64,000 nucleotides of DNA from Xanthobacteraceae bacterium (GTDB lineage: Bacteria > Pseudomonadota > Alphaproteobacteria > Rhizobiales > Xanthobacteraceae): positions 1 through 64,000 of the forward strand of contig JARBUD010000023.1 of the NCBI GenBank assembly GCA_029239875.1, given 5' to 3'. The translations under genes were made by a program, and so were the position numbers. Within the stretch, counting starts at the first letter, position 1. Every line of letters begins with the position of its first letter. Positions 54,957 through 64,000 of this stretch are shown here, one piece after another. Under the pieces are notes generated by a model. The model worked only from the letters and a program-made list of their open reading frames with translations, did not search any database and was not told the origin of the DNA.

Positions 54957-54988
54957 ACTCCGCCAGCACGCGCGTCGAGGGGAAGGTG
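54957..54988. repeat. attL: 32-bp direct repeat at the left island end
   Basis: This 32-bp string (ACTCCGCCAGCACGCG... to GGAAGGTG) is identical to 63831-63862. It copies the last codons of the histidine kinase gene at the right end. The first flanking bases on each side differ (T before here, C before the right copy). Confidence 0.95.
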
Positions 54989-55006
54989 CTTCCGGAAGAG
55001 TGACGT

Positions 55007-55018
55007 AGGTTGTTGATC
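55007..55018. repeat. Candidate left integrase arm site
   Basis: AGGTTGTTGATC, 18 bp inside attL. Its exact inverted copy GATCAACAACCT is at 63806-63817, 13 bp inside attR. A second shared motif, CACTGGACCAAA, lies in direct orientation at 55050-55061 and 63772-63783. Confidence 0.5.
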
Positions 55019-55124
55019 AGGCTAGAGATTTTCGGCCGTCGATGCGTTGCACTGGACCAAAAACTTGGATTGCCGTCAAGCGACGCGCGATAATTTTCGC
55101 CAGCGGTGTGAGCGCGTATCTGAG

Positions 55125-55970
55125 TTAGGCAGATAAGTGAGATTCCCCCTCCGGGGTGGGGCCTCCGTTAACTCGGGCATCGAGGTCGAGCAGCCAACGT
55201 AGGTAGCTGGCCCCTTGGCTAACCATCAGCGCGCCCAAGCTCTGCGGCATATCATGAGGCTCCTCGCTCCCCGGCGCGTGACGCTCGAAATGCGCAGCGT
55301 CAATCCAGTCCTTGTAGCCATTAAGGGCCGCTGTAGCTTCACGCGCGAGCTGAGGCGTGCCGGAATAAACGGCTTGCACGAGCGGGCCGTAGACCTGTTC
55401 GACCCGGCCTGCGACGAGACGAGGCTGCGCAGGGTCCACCAGTCTGAACAGCGCCTCGTTGGCTCGAAAGGTATGATACGTCGCAGACGACCAGTTGGGA
55501 TTGATGGGCGTAAGGGCGGCCTGTCCCAACTCGAACTCCGCCCGTACAGCGCGATAACGAGCGTTGGTGAGACCCGCGAGAGCGGAGCGAACGGCAGCCG
55601 CGAACTCTAGGTCGACCTTGGGGCGAACTGAACCATCCTCCGCGACTTCGTAAGCGACACTCTCCTGAGCGAAAATCGCATTGACGCGGGCAATGATCGG
55701 CGGGCGCCGGTCCTGCTGGCGCGTGCAAATGGCCAGCGTGACAAAGTCGAGCAGGTCCCTGAGTGGGCAATCCTTCAGCCATCCGTCCCAGTTATAGCTG
55801 TCCCACACGAATGGTACTTCTGCCCCCAACTCGCGACGGATAAGCGCGGCCAATTCACTAGAGAGCCATCTTTCATTATCCGCGAGTGCGAGAAGGCGAA
55901 CGCGTAGTCGACGGCTATCAGGAAGCAGCGCCTCCGGCTGCATGTAGGCTCGGCTGTAGAGCGTCGGCAT
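55125..55970 (-). CDS. Hypothetical protein with AbiJ-NTD4-like N-terminal region
   Basis: A 281-aa protein of unknown function. The segments PLRDLLDFVTLAI and ARVNAIFAQESVAYEVAEDG, followed by a predicted helical part, resemble the AbiJ N-terminal domain 4 found in abortive-infection proteins; the resemblance was seen by eye and is weak. The C-terminal half (FRANEALFRLV, YSGTPQLAREATAALNGYKDW) is helical with no motif known to me. An ATG at 56111 would add 47 residues of low plausibility; ATG 55970 follows GGGAAG. It is divergent from the serine recombinase gene. A defence role is inferred from the island setting. Confidence 0.5.
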   Translation of the reverse strand: MPTLYSRAYMQPEALLPDSRRLRVRLLALADNERWLSSELAALIRRELGAEVPFVWDSYNWDGWLKDCPLRDLLDFVTLAICTRQQDRRPPIIARVNAIFAQESVAYEVAEDGSVRPKVDLEFAAAVRSALAGLTNARYRAVRAEFELGQAALTPINPNWSSATYHTFRANEALFRLVDPAQPRLVAGRVEQVYGPLVQAVYSGTPQLAREATAALNGYKDWIDAAHFERHAPGSEEPHDMPQSLGALMVSQGASYLRWLLDLDARVNGGPTPEGESHLSA

Positions 55971-56141
55971 GAAGGGCTTCCCGTGGGACGAGGAAAGTAC
56001 CACAACGTCTGATCCGTCCAATAGACCTTGCCCATCCGGACACGTCCGCTTCTGCGCCCAAGTGCGTCCAATAGGATGGGTGTTGACATTTTGGTCGCGC
56101 TCGACTCTCATGCCTAGACCTTTTGGACACGAGGGTAGGGC

Positions 56142-56903
56142 ATGGCGCGTATTGTCGATCCGCTTGAACGGCTGCTAAAGCAGCAGCAGAAGCTCGAACG
56201 CCAGCGGGCGCGGCTGGAGCGCGAGGTGGCGCAGCGTGCCGGGATGCCACCGCGCGAAGAGTCGCTCCAGCCACGGCCGAACGGCACGCCTATGCCAGCC
56301 CCGGCGCCGCTGCTGGTCGGCTATGCCCGCACCTCCACGGCGGAGCAGGCGGCCGGGCTGGAAGCCCAGCAGCGTGACCTTGGCGCGGCGGGGTGCGGTC
56401 GGGTGTTCAGCGAGCAGGCATCGTCGATCGGCAGCCGGGCGGAGCTGTCGCGGGCGTTGGACTTCGTGCGCGAGGGGGACACGCTGGTCGTCACTAAAAT
56501 TGACCGGCTCGCGCGCTCCACCATCCACCTGTGGGAAATCGTCCGTGACCTCGACATAAAGGGCGTCAGCTTGCGGGTGCTGAACCTCGGGGGCGAGATG
56601 GTGGACACACGCAGCGCCACCGGGCGGTTGATCCTCAACATCTTCGCGGGGTTTGCCCAGTTCGAGCGCGAGATGATGCTGGAACGCCAGAAGGAGGGCA
56701 TCGCCAAGGCTAAGGCCGAAGGCCGCTACACCGGCCGCAAGCCTTCGGCGCGGCTGAAGGCGGATGACGCACGGCGCCTGCATGCCGAGGGCAAGACCGT
56801 GACGGAGATAGCCAAGGCTCTCGGCATTGGCCGAGCAAGCGTGTATCGAGCGCTAGAGACGGCGCCGGGGACCGCACAGGATACCGCATTGCCGGTCGCG
56901 TGA
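56142..56903 (+). CDS. Serine recombinase (resolvase/invertase family) with N-terminal extension
   Basis: A 253-aa protein. Residues 1-55 form a glutamine/arginine-rich, coiled-coil-like extension (LKQQQKLERQRARLEREVAQR) not usual in this family. The catalytic domain follows: GYARTSTAEQ with the serine nucleophile, TKIDRLARS with arginine, and the long E-helix ILNIFAGFAQFEREMMLERQ. A C-terminal helix-turn-helix (TEIAKALGIGRASVYRAL) binds DNA. It may resolve, invert or excise DNA within the island, distinct from the tyrosine integrase. GAGGGTAGGG precedes the ATG. Confidence 0.9.
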   Translation: MARIVDPLERLLKQQQKLERQRARLEREVAQRAGMPPREESLQPRPNGTPMPAPAPLLVGYARTSTAEQAAGLEAQQRDLGAAGCGRVFSEQASSIGSRAELSRALDFVREGDTLVVTKIDRLARSTIHLWEIVRDLDIKGVSLRVLNLGGEMVDTRSATGRLILNIFAGFAQFEREMMLERQKEGIAKAKAEGRYTGRKPSARLKADDARRLHAEGKTVTEIAKALGIGRASVYRALETAPGTAQDTALPVA

Positions 56904-56947
56904 CGGAAGGCTAGCCTCGCAGCTCTCCTCGTGTCACTTGGGCCGGC

Positions 56948-59900
56948 ATGACCGACGTCGAGCGCTTCATTTCCCGTTGGACAGGCCGCGACGGCGGGCA
57001 GGAGCGCGCCAACTACGCCCTGTTCCTCACAGAGTTCTGCCGCTTGATAGGCGTGGAGTCGCCGGAGCCGGCTGCGCACGCCACCGAGCTGAACGCCTAT
57101 GTCTTCGAGCGGGCTGTGACGTTCCGCGAGCCGGACGGCTCCACCGCGAAAGGCCGCATCGACCTCTACAAGCGCGGCTGCTTCGTGCTGGAGGCCAAGC
57201 AGAGCCGGCAGGGCGAGGGGCCGAAAGCCGCAGCGGGCGGGGAGCAGCAGCAGGCGCTCTCCCCCATTGAGGAGCCGCCGCAGGGGCGCCGCGTGAGCCG
57301 CCGCTGGGACGTGTTGATGATGAACGCCCGCCGTCAGGCGGAGGACTACGCCAAGGCGCTGCCGCCTGCCGAGGGCTGGCCGCCCTTCCTCATCGTCTGC
57401 GATGTCGGCAACTGCTTCGAGCTGTATGCGGACTTCTCCGGGCAGGGGAAGAACTATGCGCAGTTTCCGGATCGGCAGGGCTTCCGCATCTTCCTCCAAG
57501 ACCTGCGCTCGGAAGAGATCCGGGAGCGGCTGAAAAAGGTCTGGACCGACCCGCACAGCCTCGACCCGACCAAGCGCGCCGCCAAGGTCACGCGCGACAT
57601 TGCCGAGCGCCTCGCCAAGGTGTCGAAGTTCCTTGAGGAGCAGCGCGGGGCGGACGGCAGACCGCGCTACAAGCGCGAGGCCATCGCCTCCTTCCTCATG
57701 CGCTGCCTGTTTACGATGTTCGCGGAGGACGTGGAGCTTATTCCGAAGGAGAGCTTCAAGCGCGTGCTGGACCGCTGCCGGGCGAACCCGGAACTGCTGC
57801 CGGAGCTGGTAGGGCAGCTCTGGGAAGCGATGGACGCCGGCACCTTCGCCTTCGCCATCGAGGCCAAGGTGAAGCGCTTCAACGGCTACCTGTTCAAGGA
57901 TCGGACGGTGCTGCCGCTGCCGCGCGAGGAGATTGGCGAGCTGTTCGAGGCCGCCAAGGCCAACTGGCGCGAGGTGGAACCGGCCATCTTCGGCACGCTG
58001 CTGGAGCAGGCATTAGACCCGGTGGAGCGGCGTAAGCTCGGCGCGCACTACACCCCGCGCGCCTATGTCGAGCGGCTGGTAGTCGCTACCGTCATCGAAC
58101 CGCTGCGGGCGGAATGGGACCTCGTGCGCGCCACCGCCGAGCGGCTGAGCAGCGAGAGCAATCCCGGAGCCGCTTTGGCGGAGGTGACGAAGTTCCATGC
58201 GCAGCTTTGCGGCGTGCGCGTGCTGGACCCCGCCTGCGGCACCGGCAACTTCCTCTATGTCGCCCTGGAGCTGATGAAGCGGCTGGAAGGCGAGGTGCTG
58301 GAAGCGGTGGCTGACCTTGGCGGGCAGGAAGCGCTAGGTCTGGACCGCCACACCATCGACCCGCACCAGTTTCTCGGCATGGAGCTGAACCCGCACGCCG
58401 CCGCCATTGCCGAGCTGGTGGTGTGGATCGGCTTCCTGCAATGGTTTTTCCGCACGCAAGGCGGTCAGCCGACCGAGCCTATTCTGCGCGACTTCAAGAC
58501 CATCAAGGCGATGGACGCGGTGCTGCTGCACGACGGCAGCGAACCGGCGCTGGACGAGGCGAGCCGGCCGGTGATGCAGATGGATGCGGAGGGGCGCCGC
58601 GTGCCGGTGCTCGCCTTCCGCAACCCGCGCCTGCCGCCATGGCCGGAAGCGGAGTACATCGTCGGCAACCCGCCCTTCATCGGCGGGAAGGATGTGCGCG
58701 GCCGGCTGGGCGATGGCTATGCCAAGGCGCTGTGGGCGGCGCACCCGCACATGAACGAGAGCGCCGATTTCGTCATGTACTGGTGGGACCGCGCGGCCGA
58801 CTTGCTGACCCGTCGCGGAACCCGGCTGCGGCGGTTCGGGTTCGTCACCACCAATTCCATCACGCAGGAGTTTTCCCGCCGCGTCATGGCGGCGCGGATG
58901 AAGGCGAAGAAGCCCATTTCGCTGCTGATGGCGATACCGGACCACCCGTGGACCAAAGCCACCCGCGACGCGGCGGCGGTGCGCATTGCCATGACGGTGG
59001 CGTCGACCGGCAAGCACGACGGCGTGCTGAGCGAAGTCGTGCGCGAGGGGGGGCTGGAAGGCGACGCACCGACAATCGAGTACGCGGACTACCGAGGCGA
59101 GATCAATCCTGACCTGACCGTTGGCGCCGATGTAACAAGCGCGACAGGCCTTCGCTCCAACGACTTCATTTCGTCGCCCGGCATGAAGCTCCACGGTTCA
59201 GGCTTCATCATCAGCCCAGCCGAAGCCGAAGCTGTGGGTCTAGGCAAGCGTGAGGGCCTAGAAGCATTTGTGCGGCCGTATCGGAATGGCCGTGACCTCG
59301 CAGCACGTGGGCGCGGCGTCCTTGTCATCGACCTGTTTGGGTTGGAGGAAGAGGAGGTGCGTCGGGATTACCCCGAGGTATATCAGCGCTTGTTGACAGT
59401 GCGTGCCGCACGAGATGAGCAATGCCTCCGGTCGAACACGCCCGATGCAATCGAATACGCTAAGCGCTGGTGGGTGTTTGGAAAGCCGCGACAGGAGCTG
59501 AGAGGAGCACTGAGGGGGCTGCGCCGCTACGTTGCTACGGTTGAGACATCGAAGCACAGGGTCTTCCAGTTCCTGCCGGAGGATATCGTTCCGGACAATA
59601 TGCTCGTATGCATTGCCAGCGAGGATGCGTTTGTTCTTGGCGTTCTGTCGTCCCGGACGCACGTCGTTTGGGCTCTGCGTGCCGGTGGATGGCTCGGCAT
59701 CGGCAATGACCCGCGTTACTCCAAATCGCGGGTCTTCGACCCTTTCCCCTTCCCGGACGCCTCCGAGCCACTGAAAGTCGACATCCGCGCCGTTGCTGAG
59801 GAACTAGACGCCTTCCGCAAGGCCCGGCAGGTGGAGCATCCGCGTCTGACCCTCACGCAGATGTACAATGTGCTGGAGAAGCTGAGAGTCGGCGCACCAC

Positions 59901-60418
59901 TCGACGAGGACGACGAGCGCATCCGCGACGAGGGATTGGTACTGGTTCTGAAAGAGCTGCACGACCGGCTCGACGCGCGGGTGTTGGATGCCTATGGCTG
60001 GCCGCATAACCTTTCCGACGAGGACATCATCGCCCGCCTCGTGGCGCTCAACAAGCAGCGCGCCAAGGAGGAGGCTCGGGGCCTGATCCGCTGGCTGCGG
60101 CCAGACTACCAGAAGGCCCGCGCCGGCCTCGCGACCTCCGTGCGGCCGGAAGAGACGCAGGACAGCATGGCACTGGTGGTGGACGCCGCTAGGGAGCAGA
60201 AGCCGCAATTCCCGGCGGACGAGGTGGAGCGTACCGCCGCTATCATGGCCGCGCTTGCCAACGCCTCCGGCACCGTGGATGCCGCCGCCATCGCCGCGGG
60301 CTTCCGGCAGGGCAAGCGTGTCGAGCCGCAGATACAGGCCACCCTCGCCTCACTGGTCCGCATGGGCTTTGCCAGCAGCCCGGACGGCCGCAGCTTCATG
60401 TTCCGCCGCGTGGCATGA
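56948..60418 (+). CDS. MmeI-like type II restriction-modification enzyme (nuclease-methyltransferase fusion)
   Basis: A 1156-aa single-chain enzyme. The N-terminal nuclease domain has a PD-(D/E)xK site (D72, E82 and K84, in GRIDLYKRGCFVLEAKQ). A helical spacer follows. The amino-methyltransferase core has motif I DPACGTGNF (427-435), LGMELNPHAAAIAELVVWIGF, and catalytic motif IV NPPF (574-577). A target recognition domain follows (about 714-940), then a helical C-terminus. MmeI-type enzymes methylate one strand and cut at a fixed distance. There is no separate methylase or specificity subunit. The DNA for the recognition domain is lower in GC than the rest, a sign of domain exchange. Confidence 0.88.
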   Translation: MTDVERFISRWTGRDGGQERANYALFLTEFCRLIGVESPEPAAHATELNAYVFERAVTFREPDGSTAKGRIDLYKRGCFVLEAKQSRQGEGPKAAAGGEQQQALSPIEEPPQGRRVSRRWDVLMMNARRQAEDYAKALPPAEGWPPFLIVCDVGNCFELYADFSGQGKNYAQFPDRQGFRIFLQDLRSEEIRERLKKVWTDPHSLDPTKRAAKVTRDIAERLAKVSKFLEEQRGADGRPRYKREAIASFLMRCLFTMFAEDVELIPKESFKRVLDRCRANPELLPELVGQLWEAMDAGTFAFAIEAKVKRFNGYLFKDRTVLPLPREEIGELFEAAKANWREVEPAIFGTLLEQALDPVERRKLGAHYTPRAYVERLVVATVIEPLRAEWDLVRATAERLSSESNPGAALAEVTKFHAQLCGVRVLDPACGTGNFLYVALELMKRLEGEVLEAVADLGGQEALGLDRHTIDPHQFLGMELNPHAAAIAELVVWIGFLQWFFRTQGGQPTEPILRDFKTIKAMDAVLLHDGSEPALDEASRPVMQMDAEGRRVPVLAFRNPRLPPWPEAEYIVGNPPFIGGKDVRGRLGDGYAKALWAAHPHMNESADFVMYWWDRAADLLTRRGTRLRRFGFVTTNSITQEFSRRVMAARMKAKKPISLLMAIPDHPWTKATRDAAAVRIAMTVASTGKHDGVLSEVVREGGLEGDAPTIEYADYRGEINPDLTVGADVTSATGLRSNDFISSPGMKLHGSGFIISPAEAEAVGLGKREGLEAFVRPYRNGRDLAARGRGVLVIDLFGLEEEEVRRDYPEVYQRLLTVRAARDEQCLRSNTPDAIEYAKRWWVFGKPRQELRGALRGLRRYVATVETSKHRVFQFLPEDIVPDNMLVCIASEDAFVLGVLSSRTHVVWALRAGGWLGIGNDPRYSKSRVFDPFPFPDASEPLKVDIRAVAEELDAFRKARQVEHPRLTLTQMYNVLEKLRVGAPLDEDDERIRDEGLVLVLKELHDRLDARVLDAYGWPHNLSDEDIIARLVALNKQRAKEEARGLIRWLRPDYQKARAGLATSVRPEETQDSMALVVDAAREQKPQFPADEVERTAAIMAALANASGTVDAAAIAAGFRQGKRVEPQIQATLASLVRMGFASSPDGRSFMFRRVA

Positions 60419-60457
60419 GGCGCGTCGGCGTGATGGGGTTGCGAACCGCATCCGCGT

Positions 60458-60493
60458 GAATTAATTCGCGTCTGTCTGTCGGGGGACGGACGC
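60458..60493. promoter_or_regulatory. Palindrome and hairpin upstream of the zinc-ribbon gene
   Basis: GAATTAATTC (60458-60467) is a perfect 10-bp palindrome. It is followed by a hairpin with 9-bp arms and one mismatch (GCGTCTGTC at 60468-60476, GACGGACGC at 60485-60493). The pair sits 18 bp before the next start. It may end the restriction-modification transcript or act as an operator for the zinc-ribbon/ParB-like operon. Confidence 0.35.
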
Positions 60494-60511
60494 AGATTTC
60501 TCGGGTTTCGC

Positions 60512-61171
60512 ATGGCACTCTGTCGCGTCCCCGGATGCGGCGCTGAGGCGACCCGCTTCGGGCATTACTGCACGACCCACAAGTCCCGCATCCGGCGCCA
60601 TGGCGACGTTGCCCAGCTTGGTGTCACGAAGGCCGCGCTGGCACCGCATGTGGACCGCGTGCGCGCCCGCATCGCTAAGAACGCCGAGAGCCCCCTCTGG
60701 CCGCAGTGTGATGCCCGTTGGGGCGCCACGGTGGAGCACGCACAGGGTATCATCGCGGCCTTTCAGGGCGGCCGGGCGGTGAACCGCTTCGAGCTGAGGG
60801 CGGCCGGTGAGGTCGTTCGGCTAGCGGAAGTCGAGGCGCGGGTGGTGGTCGAGACGGTGGCGGCTCTGTACCTGATGCGTGACGCAGAGCCCCGCAAGTT
60901 CCGCTCCGACGCCGCCTTCAATGCCCAGCTCGTGCGCCGGGTGCGGGGCCTCTCGGAGGTCAATGCGGGCGTGTGGTTCGATCATGCGAGCGGCCGGACG
61001 AAGCGCGTCTATCGCGACGTTCCCCCCGCCGTGTCCGCCATCTTCGCGCAATGGCTGGTCGAGACGTTGGGTGTAGTGGGGCTGCGCTTGGCAGAACTGG
61101 AACGACGGGAGCAGGAGGAGGCCGCCGCCAAGCGCGACGCCTTCCTCCACGCGCTGGAGGATTTGACGTGA
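60512..61171 (+). CDS. Hypothetical protein with N-terminal zinc ribbon
   Basis: A 219-aa protein. The first 25 residues hold CRVPGCGAEATRFGHYCTTHK, a C-x4-C...C-x2-H zinc-binding pattern. The rest is mostly helical (FELRAAGEVVRLAEVEARVVVETVAALYLM, LAELERREQEEAAAKRDAFLHALEDL) and ends in a charged helix. I do not recognise the family. The stop overlaps the ParB-like start by 4 bp (GTGA), so the two products are probably made together and may interact. Confidence 0.7.
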   Translation: MALCRVPGCGAEATRFGHYCTTHKSRIRRHGDVAQLGVTKAALAPHVDRVRARIAKNAESPLWPQCDARWGATVEHAQGIIAAFQGGRAVNRFELRAAGEVVRLAEVEARVVVETVAALYLMRDAEPRKFRSDAAFNAQLVRRVRGLSEVNAGVWFDHASGRTKRVYRDVPPAVSAIFAQWLVETLGVVGLRLAELERREQEEAAAKRDAFLHALEDLT

Positions 61172-61998
61172 AGGTGACGAGCATCGAGGCCGTGCGGAAA
61201 GCGGCCGTGGAAGCCAAGGGCGAGGCCACGAAGGCTTTTGCCGTGAAGCTGGACGACATTCGGCGCGATTCAGCGTTTCAGGTGCGCGTTGATCTCGACA
61301 CGGGCCACGTCGGCAGGCTCGTAGGAGCCATCAAGGCGGGGGCCGAACTGCCGCCCATCACGATTGCTTTCTGCGATGAGGATAAAGAGCCGGTGGTCGT
61401 GGACGGGCACCACCGTTGCCGAGCTTTCCGGCAGACTGGCGCTACCACCGTCAATGCCGTCGCGATGGCGCTGCCACGCTCGCTGGCACTGTGGCGAGCG
61501 GCGGATGCGAACACCAAGCACGGCCTGCCGCTCAAGCCGCGAGAGCGTCGGGAGATGTTCCGAACATATGTCCGCACTCGCCAGCACGTCCTCAAAGCCG
61601 GATACGGTAAGGACGGCAGCAGCCTCGCGGGGCAGTTCAAGTCCTATGAGGACATCGCGCGGGAACTGGCCATCCCAAAGCCCACGGTGTGGCGATGGAT
61701 GCAGAAGGATTTCAAGAAGACGGCACTCAAGATGGGTGGAGCGGCGGAGTTTGTCGGAGAGGGCGGCGCAGCGCCGACTCGCGAGGACCATGAAAAAGAG
61801 CTTGAGGCTGCCCGTTCCGCCCTTGCGAAACTGCGGCAGGCGTTCGGCGATGCGTCGGATTATTGGGTGCGGGACGAGATATTGACCCTCGCCCGAAGCA
61901 TGCTGGCGATGATCGGGGACCAGCACGAGGCCGAAGATGAGCTTTCCCTGCATTGGGAAGACGAGCCGTTGACGCCACAGGACCACGGCGTATTCTAG
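61168..61998 (+). CDS. ParB/Srx-domain protein with helix-turn-helix
   Basis: A 276-aa protein. Residues 25-110 form a ParB/sulfiredoxin-like domain with FAVKLDDIRRDSAFQVR, LPPITIAFCDEDKEPVVVDGHHRCRAFRQTGA; the DGHHR stretch is the nucleotide-binding/catalytic motif of this fold. SYEDIARELAIPKPTVWRWMQK is a helix-turn-helix, and a helical tail follows. No ParA partner is present, so chromosome-type partition is unlikely; a DNA-binding CTPase/ATPase or regulator role on the island is more plausible. GTG start. Confidence 0.75.
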   Translation: MKVTSIEAVRKAAVEAKGEATKAFAVKLDDIRRDSAFQVRVDLDTGHVGRLVGAIKAGAELPPITIAFCDEDKEPVVVDGHHRCRAFRQTGATTVNAVAMALPRSLALWRAADANTKHGLPLKPRERREMFRTYVRTRQHVLKAGYGKDGSSLAGQFKSYEDIARELAIPKPTVWRWMQKDFKKTALKMGGAAEFVGEGGAAPTREDHEKELEAARSALAKLRQAFGDASDYWVRDEILTLARSMLAMIGDQHEAEDELSLHWEDEPLTPQDHGVF

Positions 61999-62145
61999 CC
62001 TTTACAACACTTTGGACCTCTCAGTCGTTTCATTGAGATGGTTCAGTCAACAACGGGAAGGCTCGGGAGCTCAGAAGATAAGGAGCTGCGGCCGCAATGT
62101 CGGACCAATGCGTTGTTGCTAACCGCGAGGGGAACCGGAGCGCGG
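61999..62145. other. Intergenic gap between converging ParB-like and integrase genes
   Basis: A 147-bp gap between converging genes. I see no gene and no clear terminator with a T-run. Confidence 0.4.
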
Positions 62146-63759
62146 TCAATCCACCTCGTAGCGCGGCACCTTGTTCAGTTCCGCCACGAGCACCTCGGGG
62201 CTTACATGCTCGTAGGAGCGGGCGACGCCCTTGACCGTGTGCCCTACTAGAATGTCGCGGATGGACGGCTCCACCTTCGCCTCGGTCAACCGGGTCTTGA
62301 GCGTATGCCGCCATGCATGATTGGGCTGGAGTCGGGGGTCGAGCTTCGCTGTGTCGCGCACCCATTTGGCGAGGTGCAGCGCGCGTGTCTCCGCCTGCGA
62401 GGTCTTGGCATCGGCTTGCCTGCGCTCGGGGTCGTAGAAGAGAGGCCCCAGCCCGCGCGAGGCCACGAAGGCGGGAAAACCAAGCTCCACGAGGTGCTCA
62501 TGCAGGAAGGCGCGCCGGGCCTGCCCACTCTTCACCGTGCCAGCCTCGGGTGTGATGTCGAGGACCCAGACGCCGCCCTCTTGGCGCACGTCCACACCAC
62601 GTAGCTGCGTCATTTCCCGGACACGGGCGCCCGTGTAGGCACAGAGCCATGGCACCCAGCGCCGTGTAAAAGCCTGCGTCGGGTTCTTCGGGTCGTCCTG
62701 CACGGCAAGCGCGGCGCCGAGCACGGCCTCGATCTCATCGGCACGGAAATTCGGCTGACGTTCGCGCACCCGCTTTGGCGTCTTCGGCTTCACAGTCGCA
62801 GCGGCGTTGCTGGTCAGGAGACGCCCGCCCTCATAGGACGCTGCCCAGCCGAGAACAGATTTGAGGGCCGTCAGGCTGTTATCGCGGATGGTCTTCCCGG
62901 AGACGCCTTCGACCTCCAGCCTGTGTTTCACCCATCGCCAGAGGTCATCCTCCGTGATGGACCGCACGTCCATGCCGTTCAAGAAGGCGTCGCAGGCCCG
63001 GATCGACGGGGCGTAGACCTTCAACGTGCCGGGGGAAATCTCGGGATGAGCGTCCTTCCATTGCTTGAACAGCGCCGGCAACGTCAACTTCTCGCCTGAC
63101 GCAGCGGCGCTGCCAGAGGGCTTTGAGACCGGCGCAGTACGCTCCCACATCGGGAACCGTGCGGGGCGCTCATCGGGGCTGTAGTCGCCGCTAGCAAGCT
63201 GCATGAGCCGCTGGTGAGCGGCATAGAACTGGTCCTCCATCGCCTCCATGAACAGCGGGAGTGAAGCCGGCGCGAGGGTCACGCCCTCGTCCAAGAAGAA
63301 CTGAGCGAGGTGTCCCCGGTCGTGCAGGAAAGCATGCACCCGTTGGGTCGTCTTCGGCCCGCGCGGCGTCTCATCCAGAGGCGAGATGTCACGTTCATCC
63401 AGCAGACCGCCCGTAGCCTCCAGCGCTTGAAGAGCTTCGAGGGAGAGTTGCCAGCCCTCGGGTGTGGTGCTGGCATCATCGTCATGGCGTGCCACGAACC
63501 ACTGGTACCACCGCCCAGCCAACGCCAGAGCCTGCTTACGCGAGAGAACAGTTATGCCGTCCGCCAGCGCAGCGAACCGCGCCTCCCACTCGGCATGCAG
63601 TTCAGCGTTCCGCCTGCGGGCCTCGTCGCGGTCAGTGCCTAGCCAGCGCACAATCTCGGTCTTGCCGATGCGCGCACGGAGAGCTTCGGGGACGACCTTC
63701 CGGAAACGCCAGCGTCCGGACGTCCGGTTGAGCTTCGGAGAGGGGTAGGCCATGCGCAT
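62146..63759 (-). CDS. Tyrosine-type site-specific integrase
   Basis: A 537-aa recombinase. The N-terminus RFRKVVPEALRARIGKTEIVRWLGTD is the DUF6538-type arm-binding region. A core-binding domain (about residues 225-320) precedes the catalytic domain with R in YTGARVREMTQL, HxxR in NHAWRHTLKTRL, H in ILVGHTV and nucleophile Y in ARSYEHVSPEV. It should integrate and excise the island at the 32-bp repeat. ATG 63759 is chosen (GAGG 8 bases upstream); GTG 63774 and ATG 63753 are alternatives. Confidence 0.93.
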   Translation of the reverse strand: MRMAYPSPKLNRTSGRWRFRKVVPEALRARIGKTEIVRWLGTDRDEARRRNAELHAEWEARFAALADGITVLSRKQALALAGRWYQWFVARHDDDASTTPEGWQLSLEALQALEATGGLLDERDISPLDETPRGPKTTQRVHAFLHDRGHLAQFFLDEGVTLAPASLPLFMEAMEDQFYAAHQRLMQLASGDYSPDERPARFPMWERTAPVSKPSGSAAASGEKLTLPALFKQWKDAHPEISPGTLKVYAPSIRACDAFLNGMDVRSITEDDLWRWVKHRLEVEGVSGKTIRDNSLTALKSVLGWAASYEGGRLLTSNAAATVKPKTPKRVRERQPNFRADEIEAVLGAALAVQDDPKNPTQAFTRRWVPWLCAYTGARVREMTQLRGVDVRQEGGVWVLDITPEAGTVKSGQARRAFLHEHLVELGFPAFVASRGLGPLFYDPERRQADAKTSQAETRALHLAKWVRDTAKLDPRLQPNHAWRHTLKTRLTEAKVEPSIRDILVGHTVKGVARSYEHVSPEVLVAELNKVPRYEVD

Positions 63760-63805
63760 ATTGGGTCGCCTCACTGGACCAAAGAGGCGGCCGAAACTCC
63801 TTCTA

Positions 63806-63817
63806 GATCAACAACCT
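63806..63817. repeat. Candidate right integrase arm site
   Basis: GATCAACAACCT, the exact inverted copy of 55007-55018, lies between the integrase gene and attR. Confidence 0.5.
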
Positions 63818-63828
63818 GTTGGAAACTA

Positions 63829-64000
63829 TCACTCCGCCAGCACGCGCGTCGAGGGGAAGGTGATCTCGACGATGGTGCCGACGTCGACCGCGCTGCGGAT
63901 GTTGAAGCTGGCGCGGTTGGCTTCCGCCAGCGCCTTGGTCAGCGGCAGGCCGAGCCCAGTGCCGCCGGAGCCGGCGCGCCCGGAGGTGGCGATCTGACGG
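63829..64000 (-). CDS. Sensor histidine kinase, C-terminal end (partial)
   Basis: Only the last 57 codons are in the window; the gene continues beyond base 64000. The G2 box GSGGTGLGLPLTKALAEANR and the end VGTIVEITFPSTRVLAE identify the ATPase domain of a PAS-type sensor kinase of the kind common in Rhizobiales (PleC/DivJ/PdhS group possible). The island has integrated at its stop codon without changing the protein. Confidence 0.85.
   Translation of the reverse strand, partial: RQIATSGRAGSGGTGLGLPLTKALAEANRASFNIRSAVDVGTIVEITFPSTRVLAE
63831..63862. repeat. attR: 32-bp direct repeat inside the histidine kinase 3' end
   Basis: Identical to 54957-54988. On the minus strand it encodes TFPSTRVLAE and the first base of the stop codon. 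At this end the stop reads TGA, the last two bases from the island; at the left end the same reading gives TAG. Confidence 0.95.

Follow-up and report, generated by a model that had tools for sequence, protein, structure and literature searches.

A probable site-specific integrative island of Ancylobacter with an MmeI-type enzyme, a resolvase/res system, and a ZnR/ParB-like pair

We analyzed 64,000 nucleotides from a Xanthobacteraceae bacterium (GenBank assembly GCA_029239875.1, contig JARBUD010000023.1, positions 1 to 64,000 of the forward strand; called the window here). An 8.9-kb unit in the window is bounded by a perfect 32-bp direct repeat (54957–54988 and 63831–63862). It is likely a site-specific integrative genomic island of Ancylobacter, a putative defense carrier with a serine resolvase and res-like site and with a presumed maintenance pair made of a zinc-ribbon protein (ZnR) and a ParB-like protein. 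The direct repeats flank an integrase-bearing unit, one copy lies inside a conserved gene end, and relatives have an unoccupied site with one repeat copy. The first-pass annotation of this DNA had described a compact integrative island with complete attachment (att) sites attL and attR, and the repeat was indeed exact at these coordinates. From left to right, the island holds an arm, a 280-aa gene (minus strand), a res-like site, the resolvase, an MmeI-type enzyme, ZnR, and the ParB-like protein (all plus strand), and a tyrosine integrase (minus strand). The features are as follows.

54957–54988, plus strand: att copy distal to the kinase gene (left direct repeat, 32 bp); exact repeat, single copy in unoccupied relatives.
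54989–55123, no strand: conserved left arm containing AGGTTGTTGATC...TTCGGCCG, in inverted orientation to the right arm; from DNA identity and BLAST of the arms.
55128–55967, minus strand: variable cargo gene, 280 aa, with sub-threshold AbiJ_NTD4 similarity, replaced by other genes in five compared islands; from family search and island comparison.
56015–56042, plus strand: res box I, 28 bp, putative crossover site, assigned by comparison.
56065–56097, plus strand: res box II, 33 bp, 22-bp spacer from box I; from a box search.
56103–56129, plus strand: res box III, approximate; a conserved block with limits set by eye from the Tn3/SGI1 layout.
56142–56903, plus strand: serine resolvase, 253 aa, with an N-terminal extension of ~55 aa; from Pfam and structure matches.
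56948–60418, plus strand: MmeI-family single-chain restriction–modification enzyme, 1156 aa; from Pfam, PADLOC, and a structure match.
59183–59758, plus strand: target recognition domain (TRD) of the MmeI-type enzyme (Pfam residues 746–937), apparently an exchanged segment; from Pfam and identity comparison.
60512–61171, plus strand: ZnR, 219 aa, with an N-terminal C-x4-C-x10-C-x2-H motif and no known family; from family searches.
61168–61998, plus strand: ParB-like protein, 276 aa, with a ParB-type N domain and a helix-turn-helix (HTH), overlapping ZnR by 4 bases; from profile and fold matches.
62146–63774, minus strand: tyrosine integrase with N-terminal DUF6538, 542 aa; from Pfam.
63775–63830, no strand: right arm, carrying the left-arm motifs in inverted orientation; from sequence comparison.
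63831–63862, plus strand: right 32-bp direct repeat, the att copy at the 3' terminus of the histidine kinase gene; exact repeat.
63829–64000, minus strand: 3' end of the histidine kinase target gene, whose open frame runs beyond the window; from frame reading.

With up to 3 mismatches allowed, the 32-bp repeat occurred at just these two places in the 5.07-Mb genome. The longest exact direct repeats in 20 first-order Markov windows of equal size were 16–23 bp, versus the 32 bp observed. The right repeat ends a 974-codon open frame on the minus strand that extends past the window, and the kinase frame continues through the repeat to its own stop codon. The histidine kinase identity was read from the sequence, with no family search on the whole frame. 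A tRNA as integration target was rejected, as the window contained no tRNA and the target was the kinase gene end; no known RNA family in the window reached the gathering score. The G+C content of the island was 64.9%, versus 67.8% in the window to its left. The left arm together with its att copy had 70–86% DNA identity to four other islands, and BLAST of the left arm against the right arm matched 25 of 32 positions (E 3e-4). The left-arm motifs are likely integrase arm sites.

The site was compared in 30 genomes of the genus Ancylobacter (family Xanthobacteraceae, order Hyphomicrobiales). Genomes are given as G numbers and loci as L numbers: G000 is the genome of the window, G008 is A. polymorphus DSM 2457, G017 is A. 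crimeensis, G016 is A. amanitiformis DSM 15561, and G005 is A. tetraedralis DSM 5895. The site (no more than 3 mismatches) was present in 27 genomes and not in G044, G002, and G011, and the kinase end abutted it in all 27. The integrase gene started 58–71 bp from the kinase end in six of these (G000, G005, G008, G009, G016, and G021, the last truncated); in the remaining 21, no integrase was found within 1.5 kb past the kinase. Exact abutment was seen in two closely compared unoccupied genomes, G015 and G041, where the flanks of the A. polymorphus island met with an overlap of exactly 32 bp, that is, one repeat copy. The G016 island was spread over two contigs, and its second repeat had 4 mismatches. 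On the kinase tree, the occupied label required at least three changes (gains or losses), against a shuffled mean of 5.5, and 4 of 500 shuffles were as low. As the changes fell below the shuffled mean, the island is clustered, yet not of one branch. The first-pass annotation had proposed looking for a single-copy site in relatives lacking the island and had named a lack of patchiness as counting against it; unoccupied sites and a patchy distribution were both found.

Some genomes kept parts of the island. The MmeI gene stood alone between the kinase and the next gene in 2 of the 21 integrase-less genomes, intact in G017 (L178, G017:C20) and frameshifted in G019 (L179, G019:C1). The G019 gene was 94.5–95.4% identical to the G008 island, and the alignment started in the last bases of the resolvase gene; this locus is apparently an island remnant. 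In G021 (L055, G021:C7), a large internal stretch was lost, and a truncated MmeI gene adjoined the truncated integrase.

The integrase matched PF00589 with 29.3 bits (cut-off 27.1) and DUF6538 with 42.6 bits. Its frame was open over the full length in five species, that of the window plus G008, G009, G005, and G016. The island ends and the unoccupied sites suggested that the integrase would recombine the element att and the terminal 32 bp of the histidine kinase gene, in integration and excision, leaving the gene end whole. The integrase gene was mosaic: between the window and G009 (L054), the N-terminal part had 98–99% DNA identity and the rest 62–73% (66–73% in the part further in). In the same pair, the comparison windows covering the ParB-like gene had 58–68% DNA identity. 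Parts of the ParB-like/integrase segment thus also appear to have been exchanged between species. Integrase relatives also lay at other places within the genus; at L058 (G016:C4), elsewhere on the chromosome, a 66% identical integrase lay alongside a different serine recombinase.

The restriction–modification enzyme contained four MmeI Pfam domains, and PADLOC scored it as type IIG with 1664 bits. Nuclease, helical, methylase, and recognition domains were present in one chain, as in MmeI-type (type IIL) enzymes. The D-x9-E-x-K nuclease motif (RIDLYKRGCFVLEAK) and the methylase motifs LDPACGTGNF and NPPF were in place, as defined in PMC4833311 (in excerpt), and the MmeI structure 5hr4 was matched at 2.3e-36. 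The enzyme would restrict DNA, making the island a defense carrier. Between the window and G008, identities were 96% (N-terminal part), 87% (methylase), 58% (TRD), and 90% (C-terminal part). Between G005 and G016 they were 99, 98, 73, and 99%, respectively, with the G016 N-terminus incomplete at a contig end. The TRDs of the window and G016 were 93% identical, and the window and G009 enzymes were 99–100% identical throughout. From these identities, the recognition domain appears to have been exchanged between species inside otherwise near-identical enzymes.

ZnR had no match in Pfam, PADLOC, or NCBIfam and only a marginal one in PHROGs (HNH endonuclease, E 0.0093). Its structure model (mean predicted local distance difference test score, pLDDT, 59.1) was too weak to search, and no solved relative was found (three rows, E 0.09–0.75). 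The ParB-like protein fell under the Pfam cut-off and matched phrog_1033 at 8e-14. Its profile matched ParB structures, best at 1.8e-10 (ParB N domain), and Foldseek matched its model (mean pLDDT 70.3) to Noc, ParB, and KorB with E down to 1.4e-6 but low template modeling scores of only ~0.3–0.5. It thus contained a ParB N domain plus an HTH; no ParA was found among the six island proteins. The tyrosine integrase (PF00589), the MmeI-like enzyme (MmeI Pfam domains), and the zinc-ribbon/ParB-like pair (C-x4-C-x10-C-x2-H motif and phrog_1033) named by the first-pass annotation were thus all present.

ZnR relatives occurred in 11 of 397 genomes of the order, 9 of them outside the genus, and ParB-like relatives in 25 of 341 genomes of the family, 18 outside the genus. 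The ParB-like contig matches were four, all from Ancylobacter (G008, G017, G016, and G005). We examined 18 loci. The ZnR set comprised one locus from each of the 9 outside genomes and one on a plasmid; the ParB-like set came from eight of the 18 outside genomes, namely the seven with the best matches plus G198. The count leaves out the other ten ParB-like genomes, whose matches were weaker, a further ZnR locus in G571, and G007 (L154), where the match was weak and a serine recombinase was also seen. A serine recombinase relative was present in 10 of 10 ZnR loci and 6 of 8 ParB-like loci (16/18), versus 0 of 20 control stretches; a search of predicted frames added L146, giving 7 of 8 ParB-like loci. 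An integrase relative was present in 4 of 10 ZnR loci and 5 of 8 ParB-like loci, versus 0 of 20 controls. The controls were 20 stretches of 19 kb placed at arbitrary offsets in 20 genomes, of which 14 also belonged to the test set; since they were not chosen for a comparable content of mobile DNA, the linkage may in part reflect no more than a position within mobile islands. The linked serine recombinases were mostly distant (30–50% identity; 73% in L144).

Three examined loci contained restriction genes, namely a type I enzyme (L138), type I subunits (L150), and a type IIG enzyme (L140), and L137 contained an AAA protein of a candidate defense family. PADLOC gave no match for 4 of the 10 proteins searched from these loci. 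Large proteins with similar N-terminal stretches and no PHROGs family lay just after ZnR at L139:5294-8128 (945 aa) and L144:6738-9071 (778 aa). Two proteins near recombinase genes, L058:6829-8190 (454 aa) and L140:9705-11105 (467 aa), both belonged to the unknown-function family phrog_4756. In a phage record (L136, MW202545.1), a ParB-like gene was annotated between an antitoxin-like gene and a restriction-type gene.

In line with the first-pass annotation, transfer and structural genes were not recognized: none of the six island proteins matched a transfer or phage structural family in the family searches. No replication (rep), mobilization, or type IV secretion system (T4SS) genes were recognized among them, and no plasmid copy of the island was found, with three plasmid records giving only short matches covering 1–5% of the query. 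The island could then be a phage satellite or another helper-dependent element. In that reading, a resident phage or conjugative element would package or mobilize it, and ZnR and the ParB-like protein would sense the helper. A ParB-like relative in one phage record, frequent fold matches to phage ParB-like proteins, and a phage-type Rha/anti-repressor gene at the distant ZnR locus L144 were in line with this. The host genome also had two matches (6e-14 and 1.1e-4) to phrog_2, which we take to be the large terminase, with nothing tying either to the island. However, one scan each of viral_contigs gave no ParB-like or ZnR relative, no ZnR relative was found in phages, and no packaging or capsid-interference gene was among the six proteins. 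The host genome had no PF03135 (VirB4-type) match, in a search that was positive in just 1 of 14 control genomes. We regard helper dependence, which the first-pass annotation had raised, as unlikely, and an island with its own integrase and resolvase remained the preferred reading.

The serine recombinase matched PF00239 with 133 bits and, at similar scores, solved DNA invertases and gamma-delta and Tn3 resolvases. The first-pass annotation had counted two recombinases; the serine recombinase was present, but the structure matches placed it in the resolvase type, and its reading as a second integrase was rejected. The window res had a 28-22-33 layout plus a third block ending ~13 bp ahead of the resolvase start codon, and the centers of box I and box II were 52.5 bp apart. 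The Tn3-type pattern of three boxes upstream of the resolvase gene, with a 28-bp box I and a ~22-bp spacer, was thus found. The SGI1 res is described as 28 bp, a 22-bp spacer, 30 bp, a 2-bp spacer, and 25 bp, with a site I–site II center distance of generally five helical turns (PMC12217951, in excerpt), and the Tn3 res has a 22-bp linker (PMC9943657, in excerpt). DNA relatives of the res block were found in 16 of 391 genomes of the family, 9 of the 16 in the genus; two of the matches (L083 and L084) were not res-like. In the box search, the expression used missed the G009 and G021 res despite their 97% identity to the window. L063 and L065 keep the block between cargo and resolvase start, while the stretch coding for the resolvase N-terminus is not aligned in them. 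Judging from the res layout, the resolvase and res probably form a multimer-resolution system as in SGI1, which would turn multimeric forms of the excised or newly arrived circle into monomers. In SGI1, reactivated resolution rapidly eliminates multimers (PMC12217951, in excerpt).

Between the left integrase arm and res, the island would hold an exchangeable gene, probably of defense type. In the window, this cargo gene probably starts near 55967 and not at 56111, because the first ~33 codons of the long open reading frame (ORF; 56111–56015) fall inside the conserved res-like block. Homology to the window island ended at 56010–56018, the outer edge of box I, in six of six comparisons (L053, L054, L055, L056, L063, and L065). 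On the left side, homology stopped ~124–171 bp from the left end in five of six island pairs; in the sixth, G008/G016, which had a common cargo type, it resumed after the repeat. G005 and G016 were 98.4% identical over the 318 bp running from res into the resolvase and 92% identical over the leftmost 126 bp, and the genes separating these two stretches were unrelated. The G008 cargo was a protein with an FRG domain (PADLOC PDC-S15), and the G016 cargo was similar to it by DNA (74.7% over 1608 bp including the resolvase start; the protein itself was not searched). In L063, with a related res and resolvase and another integrase, an HNH_2 protein and a protein with a weak HATPase match were found. 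At L086 (G136), again with another integrase, a 78% identical resolvase and res were accompanied by type I restriction subunits and a GIY-YIG protein resembling PD-T4-3. One species with an unoccupied kinase site had a relative (35%) of the window AbiJ-like cargo at L189 (G042:C9).

The boundary at box I raised another explanation, in which the serine recombinase is a cassette-capture enzyme acting at box I and res is an acquisition platform, not a multimer-resolution site. Besides the shared end of homology, it agreed with L063, L065, and L086, islands with other integrases in which res and resolvase of this kind have different neighboring genes. With a crossover at the center of box I, however, the outer half-site should track the cargo, and it did not. 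The outer half was identical (14/14) in G000, G008, and G021 despite three cargos, matched at 13/14 in G005/G016 with one backbone and different cargos, and matched at only 11/14 in G016/G008 with the same cargo type. No second box I was found between att and box I in the six islands; the best other matches had 11–14 mismatches of 28, no better than shuffles. These comparisons count modestly against crossover inside box I as the route of cargo exchange, and we consider cassette capture improbable. Equally improbable is a chromosomal defense hotspot where homologous recombination brings restriction genes in and out and the integrase is a relic of an immobile unit: the lone MmeI genes of G017 and G019, the latter with the look of an island remnant, and the deletion in G021 would suit it, whereas the fully open integrase frames of five species, the complete repeats, and the integrase relatives elsewhere in the genus argue against it.

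Several points weigh against the integrative-island reading. Some copies are dead, as the middle of the G021 island is lost and G019 is left with a frameshifted MmeI gene only. The six proteins matched no excisionase or replication family, the short ORFs not being searched. Box II was found in 12 of 14 res sites tried, with spacers of 21–23 bp, but box I was sought only 46–54 bp upstream of box II, so the spacer at these other sites was partly built in; box I symmetry was weak in the four most distant sites (G088, G211, G117, and G219). The cargo gene that the first-pass annotation called AbiJ-like was present, from its later start, but its AbiJ_NTD4 match (23.7 bits) was below the curated cut-off of 34. 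Three of four other cargo proteins searched (G009, G005, and G021) had no Pfam or PADLOC match. A second line of defense from the cargo gene is hence only weakly suggested.

ZnR and the ParB-like protein would serve element maintenance or recombination control and not be cargo, perhaps through partition-like stabilization or through control of recombination direction. SGI1 carries parS-like sites bound by the ParB of a helper plasmid (PMC10954446, in excerpt), a partial parallel to this pair. Tentatively, and with well under even confidence, we propose that ZnR, the ParB-like protein, and resolvase/res may form one conserved module controlling the circular form, through multimer resolution and ParA-free ParB-type clustering or synapsis. 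The island on this module would be an exchange platform between species for restriction specificity and a second defense gene. As part of the same tentative proposal, the module might be common to islands with unrelated integrases and, in part, to a minimal plasmid. If the pair does act on the circular form, this would help to explain the stability of islands without replication or transfer genes. Also of note are two protein families that accompany serine recombinases and have no function assigned in these elements. Being short and well delimited, with unoccupied copies of its site to serve as controls, the island offers a natural setting in which changes of recognition domain and cargo can be followed independently.

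The SGI1 integrase is of the tyrosine type. SGI1-family members are integrase-borne islands at the 3' end of a conserved gene (trmE for SGI1), with a Tn3-like resolvase, a three-box res directly upstream, variable cargo beside res, and, in some members, restriction–modification systems (PMC12217951 and PMC9035990, in excerpt). The first-pass annotation could not name a combination of two recombinases with a single-chain restriction enzyme and a ParB-like pair; of this, the integrase together with a resolvase and its res is the arrangement of this family (PMC12217951, in excerpt). The window island differs in that no rep, mobilization, or T4SS genes were recognized among its proteins, and on this ground we did not file it as an SGI1 member. 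It also measures 8.9 kb, versus an SGI1 backbone of 26–28 ORFs as given in the excerpted sources; its res is intact, not interrupted by cargo; and it has the extra conserved ZnR/ParB-like pair. GInt islands are likewise defined by recombination genes, tyrosine recombinases included, but need four recombination-essential genes, whereas the window island has one tyrosine integrase and a serine resolvase (PMC5385486, in excerpt).

The restriction–modification enzyme has the domains, motifs, and one shared recognition domain of MmeI (type IIL), but it is 1156 aa long versus 919, lies inside an integrative island, and varies in its recognition domain between species. The 3,454-bp plasmid p1318-9 of Roseomonas marmotae (NZ_CP061100.1, L155) encodes relatives of the resolvase (64.7%) and the ParB-like protein (34.5%), and similar CCAATAG-type and GGGAC motifs were seen by eye upstream of its resolvase. 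It differs in having three annotated genes only (resolvase, HTH protein, and ParB-like), none of them annotated as an integrase, ZnR, or restriction gene; Pfam, searched with two of the three proteins, gave no replication family. Among the matches listed from the open-access literature, no paper was found on an Ancylobacter island of this kind, its exchange pattern, or the recombinase-linked pair. The kind of element is thus known, being SGI1-like in its integrase, resolvase, and cargo beside res. As far as the open-access literature was searched, the island family, its module-exchange pattern, and the recombinase-linked ZnR/ParB-like pair appear to be new.

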